Assembly: GCA_002897735.1 (NCBI GenBank)
Contig: BDTW01000047.1
Span: 1 to 47,255, forward strand
DNA length: 47,255 nt
Source: a bacterium BMS3Bbin13
GTDB taxonomy: Bacteria > Pseudomonadota > Gammaproteobacteria > 21-64-14
Direction: 5' to 3'
The notes under the pieces were generated by a model. It searched no databases. It saw nothing but the letters and a program-made list of their open reading frames with translations, and was not told the origin of the DNA. Shown one piece after another: positions 1,604 to 13,016 of this stretch. A program made the position numbers and the translations under genes. Numbering within the stretch: position 1 is the stretch's first letter; every line of letters begins with the position of its first letter.

Positions 1604-2410
1604 TCAACCGCCTCGCCCGAACAATCCCAGCCCGAAATGACAGGCAAAGCCCAGCGCAAGGGGGCCTTGAACGGGTCCGGCAAACTCGATACGCCAGAAG
1701 CCACCGCGGGTGTCGGGCCGCACAAGACCGCGCTTCGCGCGGAAGCGATGGAAGTGAATGGGGCGAAGTTCGCGGTCCTGCATTTTTATCAAGGGCAATC
1801 GCGCCAGATGCCTGATCTCCGGCAGGGCGCGCTCCTTGCATTCGCGCAGAATCTGATCCGTAACCGTGAATTTCTTCTTCATGTGCCGGGGATGGAGATA
1901 GACCGTGACGGACGTCCAACACTTTCCGATCCCAAAGAGCGTGCTTGATCCCGCGAAGACGTTCGTGTCGGAAACTGCTTCCAACAACACCCGCCACGAC
2001 CACCCCTCCCGCGTCCACAGGCGAGTGAGCCGCACCAGCACCCGATGGCATTCCTGGTCGACCCCACCGGGCACGTATGCCGTGAGATGATCGATGCGCC
2101 CATCACCATCGGCATCCTCTGCCAAGTAAAGCGCGTGACCATGCCGATTGCCCGCCGGCAGATCGTGGCCGGAAAGCACGGCCGGAATCCTGGTGTTGCC
2201 CAACGCCTTCCCTGCTAGGCTCATTACCGCTGGGCGGAGACACTCACCCACACACAGCGTATCTTCGACCGGCGGCAACGGTGGACCAACTAGAGCGAAC
2301 CGCGCCGCCGTCGCGCCGTACACTGCCGCCAACACCGGGTAATCGCGCTCGACGATTTCCTCAAGCATTTTGACCGAAATCGGCTCGCCCTCGAGCACCA
2401 TGCTCCGCAC
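1604..2410 (-). pseudogene. C-terminal fragment of a second Csb2 (Cas5/Cas6-type) protein
   Basis: This open frame encodes about 268 residues from a GTG at 2410 and matches only the C-terminal part of Csb2. It carries 'SGHD' at residues 80-83, 'HGHALYLAEDADGDGRIDH' around 90-108 (a common Csb2 signature) and the glycine-rich RAMP end 'GPLALGFACHFGLGLFG'. Frame and family-like sequence continue upstream of the GTG to a TAA at 2486-2488, so the true 5' part, including the Cas5-like N-terminal half, has been lost. It differs clearly from the full-length csb2 just upstream and is therefore not a recent duplicate. Alternatives are a stand-alone Cas6-like processing protein started at GTG 2410 or ATG 2401. 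I favour a relic of a replaced type I-G locus. Confidence 0.65.
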
Positions 2411-2485
2411 GACCTTTCGTGGAAGACCAAAAATGTGACGACGATGCTGCTCTTCGTAAGGAAGGGCTCGCCATTCGAGGATAGT

Positions 2486-2621
2486 TTACTTCCAAGCGAT
2501 CGCGCCTATTTGGCCTGCGTATTGCACTCTTCAATGACATCTCTCGCTTGGCGTCCGTAAACATCTAGAGGTCGAAGTGATAGCCTAAAGCAAACGCGAT
2601 GGCAATGAGGACAGTTTCGAG
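2486..2621. other. Junction between csb2 and the csb2 relic
   Basis: This short A/T-richer stretch separates the stop of the intact csb2 from the truncated Csb2-like frame. I see no recognisable coding remnant, repeat or insertion-sequence end. It is the likely recombination junction where one csb2 replaced or displaced the other. Confidence 0.4.
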
Positions 2622-4823
2622 CTACCTGACGCCGACGAAGAGCCCACTTCCGAAGTTGCAGGCCTTTCCCAGCAATAACGGCCCTCCGATGGCCGTCGAG
2701 AATACCAACCTCAGTTGGGCGCTGAGGCCGCCCCCCGGCCCGCGACACACACTTATCTTGTCGATGCCCGCCGGTATCGGAAATCCACGGCGACGTAGTT
2801 CAAGCCCTACATCAGCGATAATCGCCTGTTCAGGTGTTGCACCTTTACTATATCGCGTTGGAAAATAGTCTGTCTGGGTAATCCAGGTCTTCGCACACAC
2901 AAAAATCGGATCGTCATCTTCGACAATGGTCGAAGGCTCCAGCCGGAGTAGACCCGCGGACCCCGCACGCAATTCGCGAAAGTCGGAGAGCGCAGCATCA
3001 AGAAGTCTCAGATTCTCGCATTCCTCTTTGCGTGGCTGCCGCCTTCCCAGCAAATGGGGAGCGATGACAAGCAGCCTCTGTCTGGCTTGATCGAAAGCAA
3101 AGGCCAAATGCGACCTGCCACCCCGGCGCGCCGGAGAGCCGTCTGCTTCATGGCCGCTGAAGAACGTGGGCAGCTTGGTCTGTTGCCCAAGCCGGTTCTG
3201 CACAAGTGACATCACGGCCCGGCGTAAAGCGCGCGTTACCGATTGCGAGCTGGCAAGAAGTGACAAACCGTCGACTACAACGAAGGAGAGGGCTCCCTCT
3301 ACCCGCTTGACCGGCCTCATCAGGCCGAGGCCCAAATATCTGCCATCGCCAGCAAGCAAAGGACCGACAATGGGTTGTGTGAAGTTGATTTCAACATGCC
3401 ATAGTCGAGCAGAAACGAAACGTGTCCCGATGGCGAAATTTTCCGCGCGCACGCCCTTCGCATCGAGCGGCTCGCGCTGAACACGGATAGACGCGGGCTT
3501 GAACGTGATCTCGACGTGACGTAGCGCCTGGGTAACAGCCGCCGCCGCACCGCGCTCGATGTCCACACGTTCGGTTCCTTCTTTTCGACCATGCGGTCGC
3601 GCGACCGGAAGGGCCATGGGCGTTACCGTGCGCCAGCACCGAAATCCGACCTGATTGTCATTACCAATACCATACTGGTTGAGCATCCCTCCTTTCTCAG
3701 TGGAGACGAGCATCCAAGATATTTCTCCGGTTGACTCATTGAAGCCTCTAGTTACGGAAAAGGCCCAAGCGATATCATTGGCGGCAACGGGACAGTCACG
3801 TGGGATTTCAACTAGCAGGCGCCGGATTCCGTGATCGGCATGCTGATGCCCAATGGATGGCAAAGGGATGATACGGATACGACCGGCTTTGTCGGCCTCG
3901 GTCGTGTCTCGACAAAGGCCAAACATCCGCACGATAGTATCGGCCTTTCCGGGCAACTCCTCTTTGAGTCTTGTCGCTGCACCATTGCGTACGGTCTCTA
4001 CAAGCCGCACTGCTTCCATAAGCGGCCAGGGAAGAAAACCGGCGCTTTCCGTCATGTCGCGCAATTCGTAAAGAAACCGTACCGGCGGGTTATCGTAGGA
4101 AACTTGGCGGAAGCGTGGTTTTGGCGGCTGCGAAAGAGTTTGGCCCGTCACCTTTCTCCCAGATGGATCTTTTTTCGTTGGGGCCGCCTCTCTCCTTGTC
4201 TTGAACCGGGTTTGACCTTTCTTATAGCGGTCAAATAAGCTGTTGAGCGATCCCGGAAGTGGACATGAAAGCGCGCGGCCACCACCATTCGCGACAGGGT
4301 AATGGATAGCGCCGGGATGACTAGAAAGCCTAGCCTCGGCTTCATCCGCATCGAGAACCTCGGCGACTGCCCAGGCCATATCGACTCCTCGCCCTAATTG
4401 GTAGAGCCGTTCAGCGACATCGCACATCCTTTCAGCATGCTCCGCGCCATGCTTGAACGACCACACATAGAGGAAAGGCGCTCCCAGATCAAAAATCTGT
4501 GGGTGGAATCGCTTGGTTGCCGTTCGAATCTCACCGATGCGTGTGGGATCACCACCGACGGTGTCAAGATCATTGTTCGGCATGAAGTGCCTGAAAGACT
4601 GGCCCTTGCGCACAGCGGGCGCCGCGATGACCGGTGCATCGAGCTGCTCCAACCACGCAAGTGCGTCCCGGTCCTCTTTGCAAAGAACCGCCCCTTTGGC
4701 AACACCAGCGACAAATGCCTGGAACAGCCGCGCCGGCGATGGCGGCCACTCCGAGCGACCTTCTGTATTAAGTCCGTGATAGCGGCCATCGTGAAAGCAT
4801 ATAGCAACAAGAAGGCAAGGCAT
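2622..4823 (-). CDS. csb2: Type I-G CRISPR protein Csb2 (Cas5-Cas6 fusion, GSU0054 family)
   Basis: The 733-residue product opens with a Cas5-like RAMP domain, including the strongly typical 'EWPPSPARLFQAFV' at residues 25-38. Around 556-562 comes 'SGHEADG', followed by a histidine at 572. The protein ends in the glycine-rich RAMP loop 'GGPLLLGKACNFGSGLF' at 713-729, fitting the Cas6-like half. In type I-G, Csb2 combines the crRNA 5'-end binding of Cas5 with the pre-crRNA cleavage of Cas6. Its ATG lies 3 bp after the csb1 stop, so it is the last gene of the cas3-csb3-csb1-csb2 transcript. The length is somewhat above the commonest forms. Codon use is less GC-biased than in the housekeeping genes further on. 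Confidence 0.88.
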   Translation of the reverse strand: MPCLLVAICFHDGRYHGLNTEGRSEWPPSPARLFQAFVAGVAKGAVLCKEDRDALAWLEQLDAPVIAAPAVRKGQSFRHFMPNNDLDTVGGDPTRIGEIRTATKRFHPQIFDLGAPFLYVWSFKHGAEHAERMCDVAERLYQLGRGVDMAWAVAEVLDADEAEARLSSHPGAIHYPVANGGGRALSCPLPGSLNSLFDRYKKGQTRFKTRREAAPTKKDPSGRKVTGQTLSQPPKPRFRQVSYDNPPVRFLYELRDMTESAGFLPWPLMEAVRLVETVRNGAATRLKEELPGKADTIVRMFGLCRDTTEADKAGRIRIIPLPSIGHQHADHGIRRLLVEIPRDCPVAANDIAWAFSVTRGFNESTGEISWMLVSTEKGGMLNQYGIGNDNQVGFRCWRTVTPMALPVARPHGRKEGTERVDIERGAAAAVTQALRHVEITFKPASIRVQREPLDAKGVRAENFAIGTRFVSARLWHVEINFTQPIVGPLLAGDGRYLGLGLMRPVKRVEGALSFVVVDGLSLLASSQSVTRALRRAVMSLVQNRLGQQTKLPTFFSGHEADGSPARRGGRSHLAFAFDQARQRLLVIAPHLLGRRQPRKEECENLRLLDAALSDFRELRAGSAGLLRLEPSTIVEDDDPIFVCAKTWITQTDYFPTRYSKGATPEQAIIADVGLELRRRGFPIPAGIDKISVCRGPGGGLSAQLRLVFSTAIGGPLLLGKACNFGSGLFVGVR

Positions 4824-4826
4824 GGA

Positions 4827-6008
4827 TCAGGCCCCGCTTTCTTCTTCATCGGTCTTTTTGGCCAAAAGCTTTTTGGCTTCCTTCAAATCAAACTTGTGCA
4901 TAAGCTCCTCCGGCCAATTCGCCTTGAACGGTTCGACCGCGGCTTCAGCATATTTGAGAAGTTCCTTCCGAGCATTATCTGATTCCAGGTCGACACAAAC
5001 GCGTTCACCGCGACGAGGCACCGAAACCCACCGATCCTCGCCCGCAACCCTTAGATGGCAACCTTCGCGCAGATAGAGATCGAAGTCGGCTGTCGCCGCG
5101 AGCAAGGCAATTGATAGGATATAATGCCGAACTTCCTTTGTCTTTTGATCATCCTCACCTTCTAACTTTCGGAGCGCAACAAGGTTGACAGTAACGTCTC
5201 GCTCAATCGGTCCTGATGTTAGGACACCGCCCAAGACGCGACGTTCCGGATTGGGCAGACCGTCCCTAAACTCATGCATGTGCCCAGCGGCGCCCTGACT
5301 CACCTTTCGGAACGTTGCGGGAGCATCCGCAAAACCTTTCTCAGAAAGTTTCGTTTTCTTTGCCTCGGCTTCCTTCTTTAATTCGGCCTTCTGACTATTA
5401 TCGAGTTCTTTCCAGATAGAATTGAATTGTGCTGCCGCATAGAGGGGTTGGACGTCCCAGGCACGAATGATCGAGCGAACTAGGCGGGGACGTTTTTCGC
5501 CCGTACCACCACGGGAGTCCCAAACACCGAACAAAAGCGAGGTCGGCGCAAGTCTACAGATCGGTCCGGCATCTCCTCGCTGCTTCAACGCGAGGAATGC
5601 CTTCGAGACGTCGGGCGCCAATGTCGGCGTCGATTGAATGACCGCATCAGCAATCCGATGCGCCAGATCAAGTAGCGAACGTTTCACAACATACTTATTG
5701 TCATCGCCTTCTTCTTCAGATAGTTCGATTTCAATCTGCGGCACAAACGAAGAATACGGCTCTTCCTTGAAGATTGGTTCTATGCGATTAGCTTGGGAGC
5801 CGACACTGTCGATGGTAACGACCTTCGTTCCGTTCGACAGTATATCAATATTGTAGCCGATATCAGCATAGGTGGGCGGGAAGATCACCGTGTACTCGCC
5901 CTCCTCGACTGGCTCGAGATTCTGCTTCAGGTGGATAGCGACCGGGCCGTCCTGATCGTCGGCCCAGGAATTGATGAGGTCATGCGTCAAGGTCATTGCT
6001 TCGGCCAT
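4827..6008 (-). CDS. csb1: Type I-G CRISPR protein Csb1 (Cas7, GSU0053 family)
   Basis: This 393-residue protein has the Csb1 hallmarks: 'FPPTYA' at residues 43-48 and 'DSVGSQANRIE' at 67-77, the near-invariant family motif. Csb1 is the Cas7 backbone subunit that polymerises along the crRNA in the interference complex. A lysine/glutamate-rich helix (about residues 208-225) and an acidic/lysine-rich C terminus are visible. The gene begins 2 bp after the csb3 stop and ends 3 bp before csb2. MTLTHDL at residue 5 is an alternative start. The product appears intact. Confidence 0.9.
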   Translation of the reverse strand: MAEAMTLTHDLINSWADDQDGPVAIHLKQNLEPVEEGEYTVIFPPTYADIGYNIDILSNGTKVVTIDSVGSQANRIEPIFKEEPYSSFVPQIEIELSEEEGDDNKYVVKRSLLDLAHRIADAVIQSTPTLAPDVSKAFLALKQRGDAGPICRLAPTSLLFGVWDSRGGTGEKRPRLVRSIIRAWDVQPLYAAAQFNSIWKELDNSQKAELKKEAEAKKTKLSEKGFADAPATFRKVSQGAAGHMHEFRDGLPNPERRVLGGVLTSGPIERDVTVNLVALRKLEGEDDQKTKEVRHYILSIALLAATADFDLYLREGCHLRVAGEDRWVSVPRRGERVCVDLESDNARKELLKYAEAAVEPFKANWPEELMHKFDLKEAKKLLAKKTDEEESGA

Positions 6009-6010
6009 GG

Positions 6011-6988
6011 CTAAATATCCTCTTCAGCGAAAGTGACGATTTTGTTCTTACCGGAAGAACCAAGTACAAAATGGAAACGTCTTATTGATAATGAAGGAAT
6101 GCTTCCGGTCAGCGCAACGCGTGCAAGTATTGGAGATAACACCATCCCCCAAGCCGCATAGCGAACTTGCCGATCCCTGAAGAGTTTGGGTCGCGCATGC
6201 TCAAGACCCCACGCTGCGAGAAATTCGACAACTGGGGACGATTCTACGCCATGTTTAGGTTTTTGATCGTTCGGTGAATAACCTGCGTCTATTGCCGTCC
6301 AGGTTCCGCGCGGATCAAAATTGAAACTACCACCTATCGGAGTAAGGACGTTAAGTGGATCTTCTGTCAGCTTTCTATGATCTTCGTCCCATAGCTGCGT
6401 AAGGCCTCTTGATTTTAGATCACCGGGCTGATTATTCTGTCTCTGCTTTTTCGATGGCTTTCTGCGCACTCCTTTCAACATCGCCCGAGCAACACTGTCT
6501 GCAGAACGGTTACCCGAATAAAGCTTGAAGGTTTCGCGGCCAGACCCATCAGCCCAGTGGTCAAGTTCGACAATGTGTTGGTTGCCACTGGAGATGCGGA
6601 TAGGAAGTGTCATTCGATCCCCTTTCCCTGCGCAAAAAGTCTCAGACAAGTCTATCACGGAGCCCTTAGCTTCCGATTCGGAGTCTGGCTCATCATCCCC
6701 ATCACTATCGTGTTGAGCCAGGCTCCCTTTCCCTTTCTTGGACGGAGGATCGGCATAACCTACCGGTCCAAACCGCTTGATCTCCGCCTCCGCCAAAAAC
6801 GCCAGCACAACTGCGAAGGGGTTCTTGTCGTCCTTGGCGCGCAGGCAGAATCTTACATCCCCCTCGTCGCACCAGTCGAACCCGCCTTCGGCGTCCCCGA
6901 GTAGAATATCTGCGGCTTCGAGGAAACCGAGACAGGCGAAGACTTGGCCTGGATTGAAGAGATCGACAGGAATGTCAGATTCCGCCAT
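6011..6988 (-). CDS. csb3: Type I-G CRISPR protein Csb3 (Cas8u2-like, GSU0052 family)
   Basis: I place the start at ATG 6988, which has a strong AAGGAGG site just upstream and overlaps the cas3 end by 14 bp. The longer in-frame frame to 7171 lies inside cas3. The 325-residue product begins 'MAESDIPVDLFNPGQVFACL', and 'FNPGQVFACLGFLEAAD' is the characteristic opening of the GSU0052 family. Csb3 is regarded as the putative large-subunit-like component in type I-G loci that lack Csx17; its exact role is less established than those of Csb1 and Csb2. Serine/aspartate-rich linkers occur near residues 95-115. No Csx17 gene is present in the window, consistent with the Csb3-containing variant. Confidence 0.82.
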   Translation of the reverse strand: MAESDIPVDLFNPGQVFACLGFLEAADILLGDAEGGFDWCDEGDVRFCLRAKDDKNPFAVVLAFLAEAEIKRFGPVGYADPPSKKGKGSLAQHDSDGDDEPDSESEAKGSVIDLSETFCAGKGDRMTLPIRISSGNQHIVELDHWADGSGRETFKLYSGNRSADSVARAMLKGVRRKPSKKQRQNNQPGDLKSRGLTQLWDEDHRKLTEDPLNVLTPIGGSFNFDPRGTWTAIDAGYSPNDQKPKHGVESSPVVEFLAAWGLEHARPKLFRDRQVRYAAWGMVLSPILARVALTGSIPSLSIRRFHFVLGSSGKNKIVTFAEEDI

Positions 6989-9611
6989 TGGCACCCCTCC
7001 TTCGGTCGTTCTCACGTGACGATTCCTGGTCGGCGGCGCGCAGTAGCGCCTCCCACCAAGCGAGCCCCCAGGGTCCCCAACGTTTCTGTAGCCGTGCGAA
7101 GCGCAAGGCCGTCTCGCGTACGCGTGTTTCGAGCAAGGATGGCGGCGCATCGTCACAGCCTTCGGTTCCAATCACCGGCCGCGCGCGGCCATGATGGGCG
7201 GCGATCAAGTGCAATACGAGTTCTTGCAGATCGGACGGCAATCCCTTGAACGCTTCGTCACGTTCCGCATGGAGCAGTGACCCGAACTCATGGCGGTAAC
7301 CGCTGAGACGGGGCCGGACAAGCGGCCCCCTGGTCTTTGCATAAATGCCGTCTTTCCGTGCGTTGAAGGCTCTCTGCCAGCGCACGGCCTTCTTACCCTC
7401 GTCGTGCAGACGCGCAGCGATAGCGAGGGCTTCTGCATAATCGTCGGGGAGATCGATCACCTTGGCAATCCGGCGTACTTGCTTTTCCGTCCAGGAATGA
7501 TGTTCGTCCAGCAATTGCGGTCGTGGAGACGTGGATCGACTTTCTTCCGTCGTTTCCGTTTCGACGAGAAGGCGCTCGACATCTTCACCTTCTCCGGAGA
7601 GTCTTGTCGCAAAAGAATATGTGATGCAACCGGTAGAATCCAGGGCATTATCTCCCGTAACAGTGCGGATACGAAAGCGAATATCGACCGGCCATTCGAG
7701 GCCATCGTCAGCGGTGCGGACGTCTTCGCCATCCGCATCGCCATCGAGCAACCCATCCTTCAACCCACCAAACCGCACATCAACAACGAGCGTCGCCTCC
7801 GCAAGATCCTTTTCGAGCTCCTTTCTTCGCTTCTTGTCACCGTCGCATTCTGAAAGATCACGAAGGTGATAGTGCTTGCGCAGTTCACCGTCAGGGGCGA
7901 GCGCAAAGGCAACGATATCATCGCCCCCAAGTTCTCTAGCCTTCCATAACCTTCCAGCTCGCGCCACCATCCAGGTGACAACACGCCATGATTCAGTTTC
8001 GAGCTTCTCACTCAGATGCGGCGGAGCCGCTTCGAAGAAGTCTTCCACTTCTTTCTTCGTTGACTCACCTCCTTCGGTGCGCACTGGCATGAACTTGCGC
8101 CAGATAACAGTGGACTGCGGCGCATCATCCACAATCCAGCCGCGTAACCAAGGTGGAACTTCCGGCCGTCCGGTATGCCTTTCCAGGGATGTCATCGACC
8201 AAGCGTCGACTAGTGCGCGGGAGAGCGCCGGATAGAGCGGTGGCGGTGTCGTCGACGATTCCACCTCCTTCTGAAGCTTGGAATCTTTTTCTGCGCGTAG
8301 TTTAAGCTCCCTCAAAGCACCAGGGCTCACGTCAATACTGTTGCTTTTCGGTAGGTTGCCGAGAAGTTGCAAACCACACCAAGCAATCATTGCGCGCCGT
8401 TCATCTGGTTTTGGGTCGTCCGGCTTCTTCGGTTTTGGTTCCCCCCCATGAACCAGAATGACTTGTGCGTCCCCGTTCCCAAGCCTGTTGACACGCCCCA
8501 GCCGCTGGACCATGCGTTCCCAAGGAACCAGGTCGCAGACCATGTGATCTGCATCAAGGTCGACACCCACCTCTCCCGAGGAAGTGGCGATAAGGAAGGT
8601 AGGTCTTTTGAGCTTGACATCGCTGCCCGCGAGAAATCCGAGCATCTTCAACCTTCCGGCGGCATCGACCCGCTCTTTGACTCGCCGTGCGCCGACGAAA
8701 AGTTCGGTTTCAATATTGGTCTTCGGGATGTCATTCTTTCTGTCACCCTTCGCCTTAACTTCAATTTCTTTCTTTGTCTTATCCGACACTTCTCGGCTGT
8801 GGCAATAGATAAGAACGCGAACGGCCGTCTTTCCTTCACCGGAAAGCGCCCAAGCCCGTTCAGCGAGCGCATTTTCCAACTTTTCACCATCTATTGGTTC
8901 GATGGTCAACTGTTTTTTTGCGCTAAGACGAGCTTTGACGACATCATCATCAAGATCTCCCTTCTCTTTCTCTAGGCGAAAAACTATTCCCTTGCGTTCC
9001 CGCCCAGTTGCGGACAGAGAGAGAAGCCTGAATGGAGGCACGATTCCACGATCCGCCTTGTCGTGCGTTCCGAGGAGCTCGGCGCCGGTTTCAATCGCCT
9101 CAAGCAGCCGCTCGAAGGGCGGTACAAGATGCGATTCGTCGAGCACGACCAGCGTATCTGCTCCCAACATTCCTGCATGATAAGGACGCATCTTGTGTGA
9201 CACGCCATATCCGGAAAACAGGAGGCGGGACCCGATCATATCGACAGTACCGACAATAATGGCAGGCGCGGTCGGATCTTCAAGCCATTCCCGTTTGTCC
9301 ACATGCTGTCCGCGAAGCGTGCTCACCCGCAATTCTTCGTCGGCCGACCTTGTCTTGATCTCGTCGGCAACCGTCGTCGCTTGATCAACCACGGCTCGAC
9401 GATCCACCACATAGACCAGACGCCGCGACAAGTCCGCGCCTGCTTTCAGCGCCAAGTACCAGATCGCCATGACTGAGGTCTTGCCAAGGCCGGTGGGAAT
9501 ATCGACGGTAGCCGGGATCATCCCTAAAGCAAAATATTCTGCATACAAGCGAGACTGCCACTTCAATGGTTTGAAACCAGTAAGCCTTTCAAATTCGTTT
9601 TCAAAGTCCAT
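6975..9611 (-). CDS. cas3: Type I-G Cas3 helicase with C-terminal HD nuclease
   Basis: This 878-residue protein is the target-degrading enzyme of the type I-G system. The helicase part has Walker A 'PTGLGKT' at residues 39-45, a DEAH-box variant 'DESH' at 158-161, motif III 'SAT' at 200-202 and motif VI 'QRLGRVNR' at 369-376. The HD nuclease lies at the C terminus, as is typical of this subtype, with 'LHDEGK' (H736, D737), a further histidine in 'RHEFGS' near 774 and 'AAHHGR' near 806. All motifs look intact. A GAGGA site lies six bases before ATG 9611. It is the first gene of the cassette. Upstream is a broken gene of the pRiA4b ORF-3 family, and a second Cas3 tail survives at 11.0-11.2 kb. 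Confidence 0.92.
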   Translation of the reverse strand: MDFENEFERLTGFKPLKWQSRLYAEYFALGMIPATVDIPTGLGKTSVMAIWYLALKAGADLSRRLVYVVDRRAVVDQATTVADEIKTRSADEELRVSTLRGQHVDKREWLEDPTAPAIIVGTVDMIGSRLLFSGYGVSHKMRPYHAGMLGADTLVVLDESHLVPPFERLLEAIETGAELLGTHDKADRGIVPPFRLLSLSATGRERKGIVFRLEKEKGDLDDDVVKARLSAKKQLTIEPIDGEKLENALAERAWALSGEGKTAVRVLIYCHSREVSDKTKKEIEVKAKGDRKNDIPKTNIETELFVGARRVKERVDAAGRLKMLGFLAGSDVKLKRPTFLIATSSGEVGVDLDADHMVCDLVPWERMVQRLGRVNRLGNGDAQVILVHGGEPKPKKPDDPKPDERRAMIAWCGLQLLGNLPKSNSIDVSPGALRELKLRAEKDSKLQKEVESSTTPPPLYPALSRALVDAWSMTSLERHTGRPEVPPWLRGWIVDDAPQSTVIWRKFMPVRTEGGESTKKEVEDFFEAAPPHLSEKLETESWRVVTWMVARAGRLWKARELGGDDIVAFALAPDGELRKHYHLRDLSECDGDKKRRKELEKDLAEATLVVDVRFGGLKDGLLDGDADGEDVRTADDGLEWPVDIRFRIRTVTGDNALDSTGCITYSFATRLSGEGEDVERLLVETETTEESRSTSPRPQLLDEHHSWTEKQVRRIAKVIDLPDDYAEALAIAARLHDEGKKAVRWQRAFNARKDGIYAKTRGPLVRPRLSGYRHEFGSLLHAERDEAFKGLPSDLQELVLHLIAAHHGRARPVIGTEGCDDAPPSLLETRVRETALRFARLQKRWGPWGLAWWEALLRAADQESSRENDRRRGANGGI

Positions 9612-9734: not shown

Positions 9735-10060
9735 AATATCGAAACCCCTAATCTGGCCATTCCAGCAGTCCCTCATGTTCTTCGTGTTTCGGGTTTTTGA
9801 TGGCCCTGGGCAGATCAGCTCAGCGTAGCCCCACGGGCTACCGCAGTCCTCCGGCGGGCAGGCGCGCTTTCCCTTGGTACAGCGCGGGTAGTGCATGCTT
9901 TCCTACTCCGAAAAAATCCTCTCGATCTTGAGGTCATATTCCCAACTGTCGCCGAAATCGCAATCGTAGACGAGGGTCTCGCCTTCGCCGGCAATTTCAT
10001 CCAGGCGCAGGGCAACCTTGATCCGGTATACGCCTACATTGGTTCGTTTGCCAGTACCAT
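9735..10060 (-). pseudogene. Broken pRiA4b ORF-3-family gene upstream of cas3
   Basis: Read downwards from about 10060, one frame gives 'LVYDCDFGDSWEYDLKIERI', the core of the plasmid pRiA4b ORF-3 family. It is then interrupted by an in-frame TAG and resumes with 'MHYPRCTKGKRACPPEDCG', the family's cysteine motif. After 'GYAEL' the homology jumps to another frame ('NPKHEEHEGLLEW') and meets another stop. At least one nonsense codon and one frameshift therefore inactivate it. It lies immediately upstream of the intact cas3, in the same relative position as the second family copy at 11.2-11.8 kb has to the cas3 relic. The original start is not recoverable. Confidence 0.75.
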
Positions 10061-10359
10061 ATTCTTACGTCGCACATACGGCTACATATCATCATCGCAC
10101 CCCCATGTCGTGAGTCTCTAATCGGTCTCATCGGCAAGGTTAGTGCTCCGGCCTCTTACGCAGATACCCGACATCAATACTGCCTGCTTGCGCACGCTGA
10201 TATCCACTTCCACGATGCTCGCGATATGTACCAGATGAAACATCTCCTCCACGATCATAGAGCCGGTCGGCATGTATTCACGTCGGCACGTTGGCAGTGA
10301 ACCGCACCCGCCCCCACGAACTGGGATCGTTCTTCAGCCTCACGACGCCCCTCCCGCCG
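10061..10359. other. Degenerate stretch without a convincing gene
   Basis: I find no recognisable gene. A 51-codon open frame runs on the minus strand from ATG 10273 to a TAG at 10118-10120; its predicted peptide contains 'EEMFHLVHIASIVEVDIS' and looks protein-like, but I do not recognise it. Its location among broken genes suggests another decayed fragment of the older CRISPR-associated locus. Confidence 0.3.
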
Positions 10360-10515
10360 TCAGACCGTTATCCAGCCGATATGCCACCGCCTCGTTTTCG
10401 GCTCGTGGGACATGGGCGTGATTAGCGCCGGAACGGGGGGCTGCGGGGGGGCGCAACCGACAGCAGGGTCCAGGGCGAGACCGGAGAGGGCCTTGATAAA
10501 CGATCGGCGTTGCAT
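10360..10515 (-). pseudogene. Short peptide with a Tat-like signal, probably a gene remnant
   Basis: From ATG 10515 a 51-residue peptide starts 'MQRRSFIKALSGLAL', an RR-x-F-(I/L)-K/hydrophobic pattern typical of twin-arginine signal peptides. It then runs into proline-rich sequence and stops without any mature domain. This is most likely the 5' end of a lost exported (perhaps cofactor-containing) protein. No partner Tat substrate is identifiable nearby. Confidence 0.35.
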
Positions 10516-10809
10516 GGCGGCCTCGCATAGGTTGCTCTTCGGCCCTTTATACCACCGGCGGTGGCTCACCGGTTGAGCCTGTGACGCAGGGTGCGGGGTC
10601 CGTGCGGCTTCGCAGAACCGACGGGCGGCGCCCGATGGTCGCACCTTGCGCCCTCACCGGCGGCCGGCAATCGCGGGCACCAGATCGCCGCAGATGCAGA
10701 GATACAGATGGGATTCTGTGCAGGGGACGAACCGCGAACTGCCGTTCGCCGATGGCGATTTCGGCCAAGCTTACCCGCTCCGCAAGGTACGGCGCGAGTT
10801 GCTGGTAGC

Positions 10810-11019
10810 TCAGGATGTCGAGCTGGGTTTCGAGGGATCGGGTGGCGGAATGAGGTGAGCGAGTCGTTCCCGGAGGTAGGTCTCGTCCACGGGCTCTCCT
10901 TCCATCGCCATGGAGCGGGCCACGTGGCGCGGTATCGCTTGCAGATGGCGCCGCTTGCGCTCCCCAGGAGACAATGTACGCCAGTGCTGAATCGCTTCTT
11001 TCCAGTTCATGCTTTTCAT
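10810..11019 (-). CDS. Small uncharacterised protein overlapping the Cas3-tail relic
   Basis: A 69-residue protein starts at ATG 11019, six bases after a GGAGG site. It begins MKSMNWKEAIQHWRTLSP and contains 'IPRHVARSMAMEGEPVDE', a compact basic/acidic helical pattern that looks conserved, although I do not know its function. The good ribosome-binding site and codon pattern support expression. Its ATG lies in sequence that, in another frame, is the end of the cas3 relic, so it was probably the next gene of the older locus. An antitoxin-like or accessory regulatory role is possible but not supported by a recognised domain. Confidence 0.5.
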   Translation of the reverse strand: MKSMNWKEAIQHWRTLSPGERKRRHLQAIPRHVARSMAMEGEPVDETYLRERLAHLIPPPDPSKPSSTS

Positions 11020-11224
11020 TGTCGGCCTCCAACACAGGGTCTGCAACGGATATTCTCAATGCATGCTGGTCGGCGGCGCACAGCGGGGCTTCGAGCCAAG
11101 CCAAGGTGAATGGGCCGTGCTGCGCGAGCAGGCCCCGCACGCGGTCGGTCCAGCTCGGGCCGGGCGAGTGCTTACGGGGCGAGGTCGAGGTGACTTTGGG
11201 GGCCGATTCATTACCCGCGCCGGA
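11020..11224 (-). pseudogene. C-terminal tail of a second type I-G Cas3 (relic)
   Basis: One minus-strand frame encodes 'GPFTLAWLEAPLCAADQ', which aligns without gaps to 'GPWGLAWWEALLRAADQ' at the end of the HD domain of the intact Cas3 (about half of 24 positions identical). The frame opens directly after the stop of the upstream pRiA4b ORF-3-like gene and ends near the start of the small 69-residue gene. The helicase and the rest of the HD domain are missing, so this is a deletion remnant. It indicates that the locus once held another cas3, divergent from the present one. Confidence 0.6.
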
Positions 11225-11766
11225 TCAGCGCAGCCGCCAAAGGATCCGGTTGACCTTGGCCGGATCGAAGGCCTCCGGGTCGAACGAGGGTCCGGCCCAC
11301 TCGCGGATTTCCTCGTGTCTCGGGTGCGCCGGGTCCTGCAAGGCGGCGAGCAGGTCTTCGTAACCGGGCGGTCCGCCGCAGTCCTCCGGCGGGCAGGCGC
11401 GCTCGCCGGCCAGGCAGCGGGGATAATGCACGGCGGGATCGGCGGGCAGCGCCTTTTCAATCCTGATCTCGTGGGTCCAGCCGTCGCCGAAATCGTATTC
11501 GTATGGGAAGGCGTCGCCCGGCCCGGCTACCTTGTCGAGGGGGATGACGCGCCCGCTCTGCGCGAGGTCGGGGGAATCGGGGTGGGGCACACCGTAGGTC
11601 ACATCGCCGATGCGAAAAGCGTGCAAATGGCTGTCGGTCCACCCATGGCCGCCTGCAGCACGCGGTGGAACTTGCCGAGGCGAATGTCCGCGGGAACCTG
11701 GATGCGGCGCCAGATGAGCGGCTGGATGTCTTGCAATGTGACCTTGATCTCGAACACGTCCATAAC
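11225..11766 (-). pseudogene. pRiA4b ORF-3-family protein, frameshifted
   Basis: The natural start is ATG 11766 with 'MDVFEIKVTLQDIQPLIWRR', the standard family N terminus, running to '...VLQAAMG' near 11641. Downstream the family sequence continues in another frame as 'WTDSHLHAFRIGDVTYGVP', 'YEYDFGDGWTHEI' and 'HYPRCLAGERACPPEDCGG'. A single base is missing at about 11640-11645 (ATG GG-TGG). Apart from this, the whole ~180-residue domain is present, so the loss is recent or a sequencing error. The biochemical role of the family is unknown; members are often near mobile or defence genes. It lies 15 bp after the WYL regulator gene and directly before the cas3 relic. Confidence 0.8.
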
Positions 11767-11781
11767 GTATTTCCTCCCTTG

Positions 11782-12762
11782 TCATTTCGATTCGCCGGGG
11801 GTGCCGTCATAGCGCGCCGAGGCGGCGCGCAGGCGCTCGGCCACCAGGGCGCGCAGGAACTCCGGGGCCAGTACCTCGACGTCGGGACCGTACTTGAGAA
11901 TGTCCATCAGCAATTCGCGGGGATCGGAGTAGGGAATCTGCAACTCGTACATCCCCCCTACCCACTGGCCGATCTGGTCCGGGTGCCAACGCTCGTCGGC
12001 GACCCAGCGGGCCCGCTCGGCGGTGAAGCGCAGTACGGCCCAACTCGCGGCCTCTCCGGTGAAGATGCCGAAGCTGGCGCGCAGATGGCGGTCCAGGGCC
12101 GCGTCGTCGGCCGGACGAACCGGCCGACCGGTATCGGAGGCCTCGCGAATCCGATCCAGGGAGAAGGTGCGCATGTCCTGCGCCCGCTCGCACCAGGCCG
12201 CTACGTACCAGTTGTCCCGGTAATGCAGGAGGCGGTAGGGGTGGATGCGCCGGTCGCTGACCGCTTCGCGTTCGCGGCCGTGGTAGCGAATGTCCAGGAT
12301 GTGTCCACCGAGAACGCCGGTCGAAATGCATCCGAAGATGGAATCATCCACGGTCCGGCTGGCGAACGGCCGGAGCAGGACCCGTGAGGTAACGGTCTCC
12401 GCGGCATGCCCGCTCTGCTCCAGCAGCTTCCGGATGCGGGCCTTGAGCGGGCCGATATAAGGGCCCAGTAGGCCGGGTTGTACGGCTTCGAGGAGCTGTT
12501 CGCTCGCCAGCAGCGCATAGAGTTCGCTGTCGTTGAACCACAGCCCGGGAAGCTGGAACTCGGGGGCATCGGGGTCGTAGTGGTGACCATTGCGCTCCCG
12601 ATCGTAAAGGATCGGCGCTCCCATGAAATCGCGCAGGTAGGCGATGTCGCGCACCACGGTCGCCCGGGAGACACCGAGGCGGTCGATCAGCGTAGACAGG
12701 GGGACGGGACGTCTCCCGGAGAGTGCGGCGTGGAGCCGGTAGATGCGCTCCGCGCGATTCAT
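11782..12762 (-). CDS. WYL-domain transcriptional regulator
   Basis: The 326-residue protein has an N-terminal winged helix (residues about 1-60, 'LSTLIDRLGVSRATVVRDI') followed by a WYL domain. The WYL domain contains 'HPYRLLHYRDNWYVAAWC' (174-191), where WYV stands for the WYL triplet, and the matching arginine-rich 'RTFSLDRI'. A C-terminal WCX-type extension is present. WYL regulators bind ligands, in some cases nucleic acid or nucleotides, and often control defence loci. It is transcribed toward the pRiA4b ORF-3 gene and the cas region, making it the likely regulator of the original CRISPR operon. The protein appears intact even though the next genes are broken. Confidence 0.85.
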   Translation of the reverse strand: MNRAERIYRLHAALSGRRPVPLSTLIDRLGVSRATVVRDIAYLRDFMGAPILYDRERNGHHYDPDAPEFQLPGLWFNDSELYALLASEQLLEAVQPGLLGPYIGPLKARIRKLLEQSGHAAETVTSRVLLRPFASRTVDDSIFGCISTGVLGGHILDIRYHGREREAVSDRRIHPYRLLHYRDNWYVAAWCERAQDMRTFSLDRIREASDTGRPVRPADDAALDRHLRASFGIFTGEAASWAVLRFTAERARWVADERWHPDQIGQWVGGMYELQIPYSDPRELLMDILKYGPDVEVLAPEFLRALVAERLRAASARYDGTPGESK

Positions 12763-12941: not shown

Positions 12942-13016
12942 CGTCGGCCGGGCGAGCCCGGCCCTACGGGTGGGTGTGATCACCGATACGCGCGGGCTGG
13001 CCCGGCCCCTACGGGT
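12942..13016. repeat. REP-like palindromic repeats at the 3' end of bioA
   Basis: CGTCGGCCGGGCGAGCCCGG followed by CCCTACGGG lies at 12942-12970, and a variant CGGGCTGGCCCGGCCCCTACGGG at 12992-13014. The core is a GGCCGGGC/GCCCGGCC hairpin with a CTAC tail. The second copy overlaps the stop codon of bioA: the TAG at 13009-13011 is part of the repeat. Related copies occur around 26.8, 27.0, 29.0 and 38.5-38.9 kb. Confidence 0.75.

Follow-up and report, generated by a model that had tools for sequence, protein, structure and literature searches.

The window analyzed here, a stretch of 47,255 nucleotides, carries two copies of a gene of the pRiA4b ORF-3 family (PF07929), each followed by sequence of a type I-G cas3 gene, which raises the question of what this family does beside CRISPR-Cas operons. 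A sequence-only reading of the window had taken the repeated pairing as a sign of functional association with type I-G Cas3. The results below instead place PF07929 in a segment that is led by a WYL-domain regulator and common to several type I subtypes.

An intact type I-G operon and the remains of a second locus

The minus strand of the window contains an intact operon of cas3, cas8g2, csb1, and csb2 (9611 to 2622), all of which scored above the NCBIfam cut-offs and thereby place the system in type I-G. The cas3 gene (6975..9611), encoding a helicase with a C-terminal HD domain, matched TIGR02621 at 578.8 bits (cut-off, 400); cas8g2 (6011..7021) matched TIGR04106 at 157.9 bits (cut-off, 125); csb1, or cas7g (4827..6008), matched TIGR02570 at 104.3 bits (cut-off, 38); and csb2 (2622..4823), of the Cas5-Cas6 kind, matched TIGR02165 at 310 bits (cut-off, 45). 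No array-like repeat family was found within the 47-kb window. The far side of the operon is also flanked by remnants of another I-G locus (1604..2494, minus strand), in which a small-ORF relic (2494-2357; 48% identity, E 2e-9 by tblastn) leads into a further csb2 reduced to its C-terminal half (2410-1604; TIGR02165 at 75.6 bits, profile positions 252 to 489). Beside these remnants, at the window edge, ORF reading suggests two toxin-antitoxin-like pairs (3-690 and 916-1542), a Phd-like gene with a PIN-like gene and, as the second pair, a RelE/ParE-like gene with its antitoxin. Elsewhere in the window there are long direct repeats that resemble duplicated genes or gene segments (31488-31787/32192-32491, 85% identity, and 26490-26694/27148-27352, 77% identity) and a dispersed, intergenic, REP-like G+C-rich palindromic repeat, GTAGGGCCGGGCTCGCCCGGCC, with copies at 12942, 26767, 26981, 28963, 29031, 38555, 38769, and 38920, including near the WYL gene described below.

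Just upstream of the intact cas3 is PF07929 copy B (about 9757..10061, minus strand; 78.8 bits), which is broken: its N-terminal ~72 residues are gone, and it has one internal TAG and a frame change near 9816. Copy A (11225..11763, minus strand; 163.7 plus 47.7 bits) is full length bar one frameshift at ~11641-11644, which may be real decay or an assembly error, and aligned with intact relatives at 65 to 66% identity. At 163.7 and 78.8 bits, both copies pass the Pfam gathering cut-off of 26.6 bits. The two copies and the position of the intact cas3 behind a broken ORF-3-like gene were thus as the sequence-only reading had described them, but a third partner had been overlooked. This is an intact gene for a WYL transcriptional regulator (11785..12762, minus strand), the first gene of what is here called remnant locus A, which ends ~20 bases from copy A. 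Its product has an HTH_11, WYL, and WCX architecture (PF13280 at 71 bits, PF25583 at 55 bits, and PF08279 at 34.5 bits) and is 42 to 77% identical to the WYL proteins that adjoin PF07929 in other genomes.

Behind copy A, a scrap is all that is left of another type I-G cas3 (11060..11170, minus strand); it encodes the last 37 residues, or ~5%, of Cas3. A plain pairwise comparison gave E 0.06, and a profile of 15 I-G Cas3 proteins gave E 9e-10 in the window, with the scrap covering profile positions 768 to 804 of 814. The scrap is supported as real by the ORF behind it, an intact 69-residue ORF of an unnamed family (10813..11019, minus strand), which is homologous to the small ORF behind cas3 in several relatives. 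The cas3 relic previously proposed at this position is thus supported, as a C-terminal deletion leftover. The accompanying statement that only a stop codon separates it from ORF-3 was misleading. The stop (11227-11225) is the natural C terminus of ORF-3, since relatives likewise end in "..LWRLR", and about 54 bases intervene between it and the scrap, so that the arrangement is not a broken ORF-3/Cas3 fusion. A probable remnant of a HIRAN gene of the Tat-like signal peptide type (10363..10515, minus strand), weak on its own, showed 51% identity over 32 residues (E 0.005) to the HIRAN protein of a relative, in which the domain was confirmed; that gene sits between PF07929 and cas3 in genome G055.

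Because the 69-residue ORF identifies the scrap, locus A is what survives of a second WYL-ORF3-cas3 locus after the deletion of almost the whole cas3 gene, and we infer the adjacency of copy A to a whole cas3 from this deletion remnant. The window thus holds a decayed WYL-ORF3-cas3 locus, consisting of the WYL gene, a frameshifted ORF-3, and a cas3 tail, beside an intact I-G operon with its own broken ORF-3.

PF07929 genes upstream of cas3 in several type I subtypes

A sample of 369 genomes of the window's class, which gene content suggests to be the Gammaproteobacteria, contained 38 PF07929 genes (E 0.001 or better, copies counted) in 34 genomes, and their neighborhoods were read in regions of up to 20 kb. 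With the window counted once, cas3 was located just downstream on the same strand, within about 3 kb, of 9 of the 38 genes, representing eight genera, whereas uniform placement would lead to an expectation of 0.015. Chance neighborhood draws on the small number of cases but is refuted in the sampled class by this excess, and its probability is negligible. The cas3 genes concerned are of type I-G in the window, G156, G055, and G040; of type I-C in G170 and G014, where Cas8c or Cas5c was confirmed; of the I-C kind by sequence in G327, where the contig ends; and of type I-E in G125, where Cse1 was confirmed. In G368, a cas3 HD fragment at the contig end was recognized by sequence reading. The gene order is PF07929-WYL-cas3 in G040 and G368 and WYL-PF07929-cas3 in the rest.

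The enrichment beside cas3 in other genomes that was expected from the window alone was therefore borne out in its class, but the unit that recurs is a WYL-PF07929-cas segment found in several type I subtypes. A partnership in which PF07929 functions with type I-G Cas3 specifically would fit the two copies in the window and the 4 of 21 class genomes with a I-G cas3 in which PF07929 is immediately upstream. It is contradicted by the same arrangement with I-C and I-E cas3 and by the observation that PF07929 is never found at cas3 without a WYL gene. In addition, when 84,980 species were scanned for the closest relatives of the Cas3 encoded in the window, 79 loci were obtained, mostly from other classes, of which 62 had 1.5 kb or more of upstream sequence; PF07929 was present near none of the 79 by the same profile that does find the window copies and known positives. 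Specificity for type I-G was rejected on the basis of the I-C and I-E cases and the wide scan, and the tie to I-G Cas3 as such, as first proposed, is very doubtful.

The association is a feature of particular lineages of the window's class. Twenty further loci from a phylum-wide PF07929 sample included none with the WYL subfamily of the window or with cas3, and seven PF07929 relatives on viral contigs included none with WYL or cas3. The WYL subfamily was found on only four plasmids, Variovorax megaplasmids, at 44% identity. PF07929 is common on plasmids (621 records, all below 60% identity), and IS1096/ISAzba1-type transposons carry pRiA4 ORF-3-like genes (PMC3942029), both of which would fit an account in which PF07929 traveled as a passenger of such elements and came to its position by an accident of insertion. 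However, no transposase was recognized among the ORFs from WYL to cas3 in the window and four other loci, the same-strand position is repeated in eight genera, and the linked copies form a clade of their own, making a transposon passenger highly improbable.

A WYL regulator as the constant partner

A WYL gene of one subfamily, intact or broken, is present in every PF07929-cas3 pairing. Roughly 100 cas3 loci from the class were read up to 8.5 kb upstream, and those offering 2.5 kb or more of upstream sequence, 80 in all, were scored. WYL genes of the window's subfamily were upstream on the same strand in 33 of these 80 loci, distributed as 12 of 20 for I-G, 9 of 33 for I-C-like, 10 of 23 for I-E or other, and 2 of 4 unassigned loci, the subtype labels being approximate as they come from small custom profiles. 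PF07929 occurred in 6 of the 33 cas3 loci with WYL versus 0 of the 47 without it (Fisher p = 0.004). Viewed from the regulator, the subfamily comprised 103 members spread over 96 genomes, and PF07929 was a neighbor of 9 of 39 WYL genes near cas3 versus 2 of 64 elsewhere (hand tally, p = 0.002).

The subfamily extends beyond the subtypes in which PF07929 was seen, as type I-F cas1 adjoins the WYL gene in 4 of 18 WYL loci that were read and lack cas3. Its range thus covers four or more of the type I subtypes, with the gene lying upstream of cas3 in I-C, I-E, and I-G or of cas1 in I-F. Its HTH, WYL, and WCX architecture and its position beside cas genes are those of the WYL-HTH proteins that are known to control CRISPR and other defense operons and to respond to nucleic acid ligands (PMC4012209, PMC9122601, PMC10693628). 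In the window, G055, and G327, the WYL gene and PF07929 are on the same strand and are separated by about 6 to 20 bases, and the location of PF07929 between WYL and cas3 is well supported. WYL-PF07929 pairs without cas genes are also present in two genera (G337 and G260). A palindrome and shared-word scan of eight regions upstream of WYL genes identified no conserved operator.

Other genes in the WYL-cas gap

PF07929 is not the only family found between the WYL and cas genes. HIRAN genes occupy this gap in G123, G033, G192, and G055 and, in type I-F, in G322; a nucleotidyltransferase-like gene was found in G205, DUF1016 nucleases in G091 and, in type I-F, in G242, and an ORF6N gene in G341. 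Since other small genes share the gap, restraint is called for, as position alone is no proof of regulation by PF07929. As a separate observation, the HIRAN proteins that recur from WYL to cas3 (I-E, I-C, and I-G) or to cas1 (I-F) mostly have a Tat-like signal peptide; they were seen in five loci and as the window remnant at 10515-10363.

The 69-residue ORF belongs to a different small family, with a consensus around "IPRxVARSMAFEGEPV", that in many genomes is encoded close to type I-G cas3 or immediately after it. Homologs were found in eight loci at 44 to 61% identity (tblastn), and further members are in three other loci and at two places in the window (11019-10813 and 2494-2357). The ORF had no match in Pfam or NCBIfam, and the family looks like an unnamed, conserved small gene of I-G systems.

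A CRISPR-linked branch of PF07929 and its predicted fold

In a tree of the sampled proteins, the cas3-linked PF07929 copies complete enough to be placed, including window copy A, form one clade (support, 0.91) spanning I-C, I-E, and I-G, and copies from other contexts fall outside it; the broken copy from G156 was too short for inclusion. The same clade also holds the PF07929 proteins of G337, which is linked to WYL in the absence of cas genes, and of G290, which lies at a contig edge. Of two proteins from outside the sample, that of G759 is closely related to the I-E copy and that of G760 is more distant; both come from contigs that lack WYL and cas, the G759 contig being short. A protein with a SEC-C metal-binding motif is often fused to, or encoded just after, PF07929 of this clade (five loci). 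PF07929 itself has a conserved Cys/His motif, YPxCxxGxRACPPEDCGG. Across eight pairs, WYL and PF07929 distances showed no correlation (Mantel r 0.05, p 0.39), indicating that the two genes came together on more than one occasion or were reshuffled. Joint inheritance of WYL and PF07929 as one cassette was therefore unsupported. Several PF07929 copies are broken (window and G156), and the gene is thus dispensable.

These histories bear on the possibility that the gap behind WYL in CRISPR loci simply gathers small defense or stress genes, with PF07929 acting independently and having no direct part in cas regulation. The variety of families in the gap (HIRAN, DUF1016, nucleotidyltransferase, ORF6N, and PF07929) is what would be expected of such a site, as are the lack of congruence between WYL and PF07929, the broken copy beside an intact cas3, and the pairs that exist without cas. 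That PF07929 and HIRAN recur more than the other genes and that the PF07929 genes found with I-C, I-E, and I-G belong to a single clade argue the other way, and on the whole we consider this explanation unlikely, though a serious competitor.

An AlphaFold2 model of a PF07929 relative from a viral contig (49% identical; pLDDT 85) had as its top structural match the solved family member 2I1S (MM3350), at Z 20.5. The next matches were SNAPC3 chains, at Z 7.5 to 9.1 over 134 to 143 residues, a level reachable by shared architecture alone, and these were followed by ubiquitin-like domains, which scored no higher than about Z 6. The resemblance of the modeled fold to SNAPC3 is a weak hint that PF07929 may bind nucleic acid.

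Proposed role of PF07929 and comparison with known systems

The reading that we favor, at a probability of roughly one in two, is that PF07929 is here an optional accessory or helper of a WYL-regulated type I cas operon, perhaps one that binds DNA. The WYL protein would sense a nucleic acid ligand derived from infection or damage and would control transcription of its own gene and of the downstream cas genes. The PF07929 protein would be translated from that same transcript and would modulate this control, with binding to DNA or to the regulator as the likeliest means. The idea of DNA binding comes from the fold, which is closest to the promoter-binding subunit SNAPC3, and the regulatory role suggested for PF07929 is conjecture, drawn from where the gene lies, its operon-like spacing, and the likeness in fold. 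A stronger form of this proposal, in which a dedicated PF07929 branch is a coregulator of CRISPR-Cas expression and forms, together with one WYL subfamily, a control unit reused across I-C, I-E, and I-G operons, can be put forward only tentatively. If it were true, it would give the very widespread orphan family PF07929 its first functional context.

The regulation of CRISPR by WYL proteins is already known. No link of pRiA4b ORF-3 or PF07929 to CRISPR was found in the open-license literature searched, which omits most subscription papers. PF07929, a family without an assigned function, is encoded on hundreds of plasmids and in numerous genomes. Its repeated, same-strand placement from WYL to cas3 in three CRISPR subtypes provides a concrete and testable hypothesis for one branch, and the pattern suggests that a control segment headed by WYL recurs among type I systems whatever subtype follows it.

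Among described systems, the BrxR/CapW-type WYL regulators of BREX, CBASS, and other defense loci likewise sit upstream of a defense operon, a likeness of context, and the accessible portions of the papers, which give CRISPR-Cas neighbors in 10% of the defense associations of BrxR homologs, describe no PF07929 partner (PMC9122601, PMC9122588). The Synechocystis subtype I-D protein Sll7009 is, like the window's regulator, an HTH and WYL protein beside type I cas genes and a predicted ligand-controlled regulator (PMC4012209); this likeness is one of architecture and gene neighborhood, and the regulatory role of the window WYL is likewise predicted. The subfamily of the window differs from Sll7009 in serving I-C, I-E, I-F, and I-G systems, often with PF07929 or HIRAN between WYL and cas. 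The best structural match outside the PF07929 family, SNAPC3 (SNAP50) of the eukaryotic snRNA promoter-binding complex SNAPc, shares about 12% identity at a borderline Z score, a similarity of fold alone. With the pRiA4b ORF-3 and IS1096 TnpR-type passenger proteins, including 2I1S, the proteins described here share family and fold (Z 20.5), but whereas PF07929 is usually found on plasmids, in transposons, or as solitary genes, here it forms a separate clade beside WYL and cas3.
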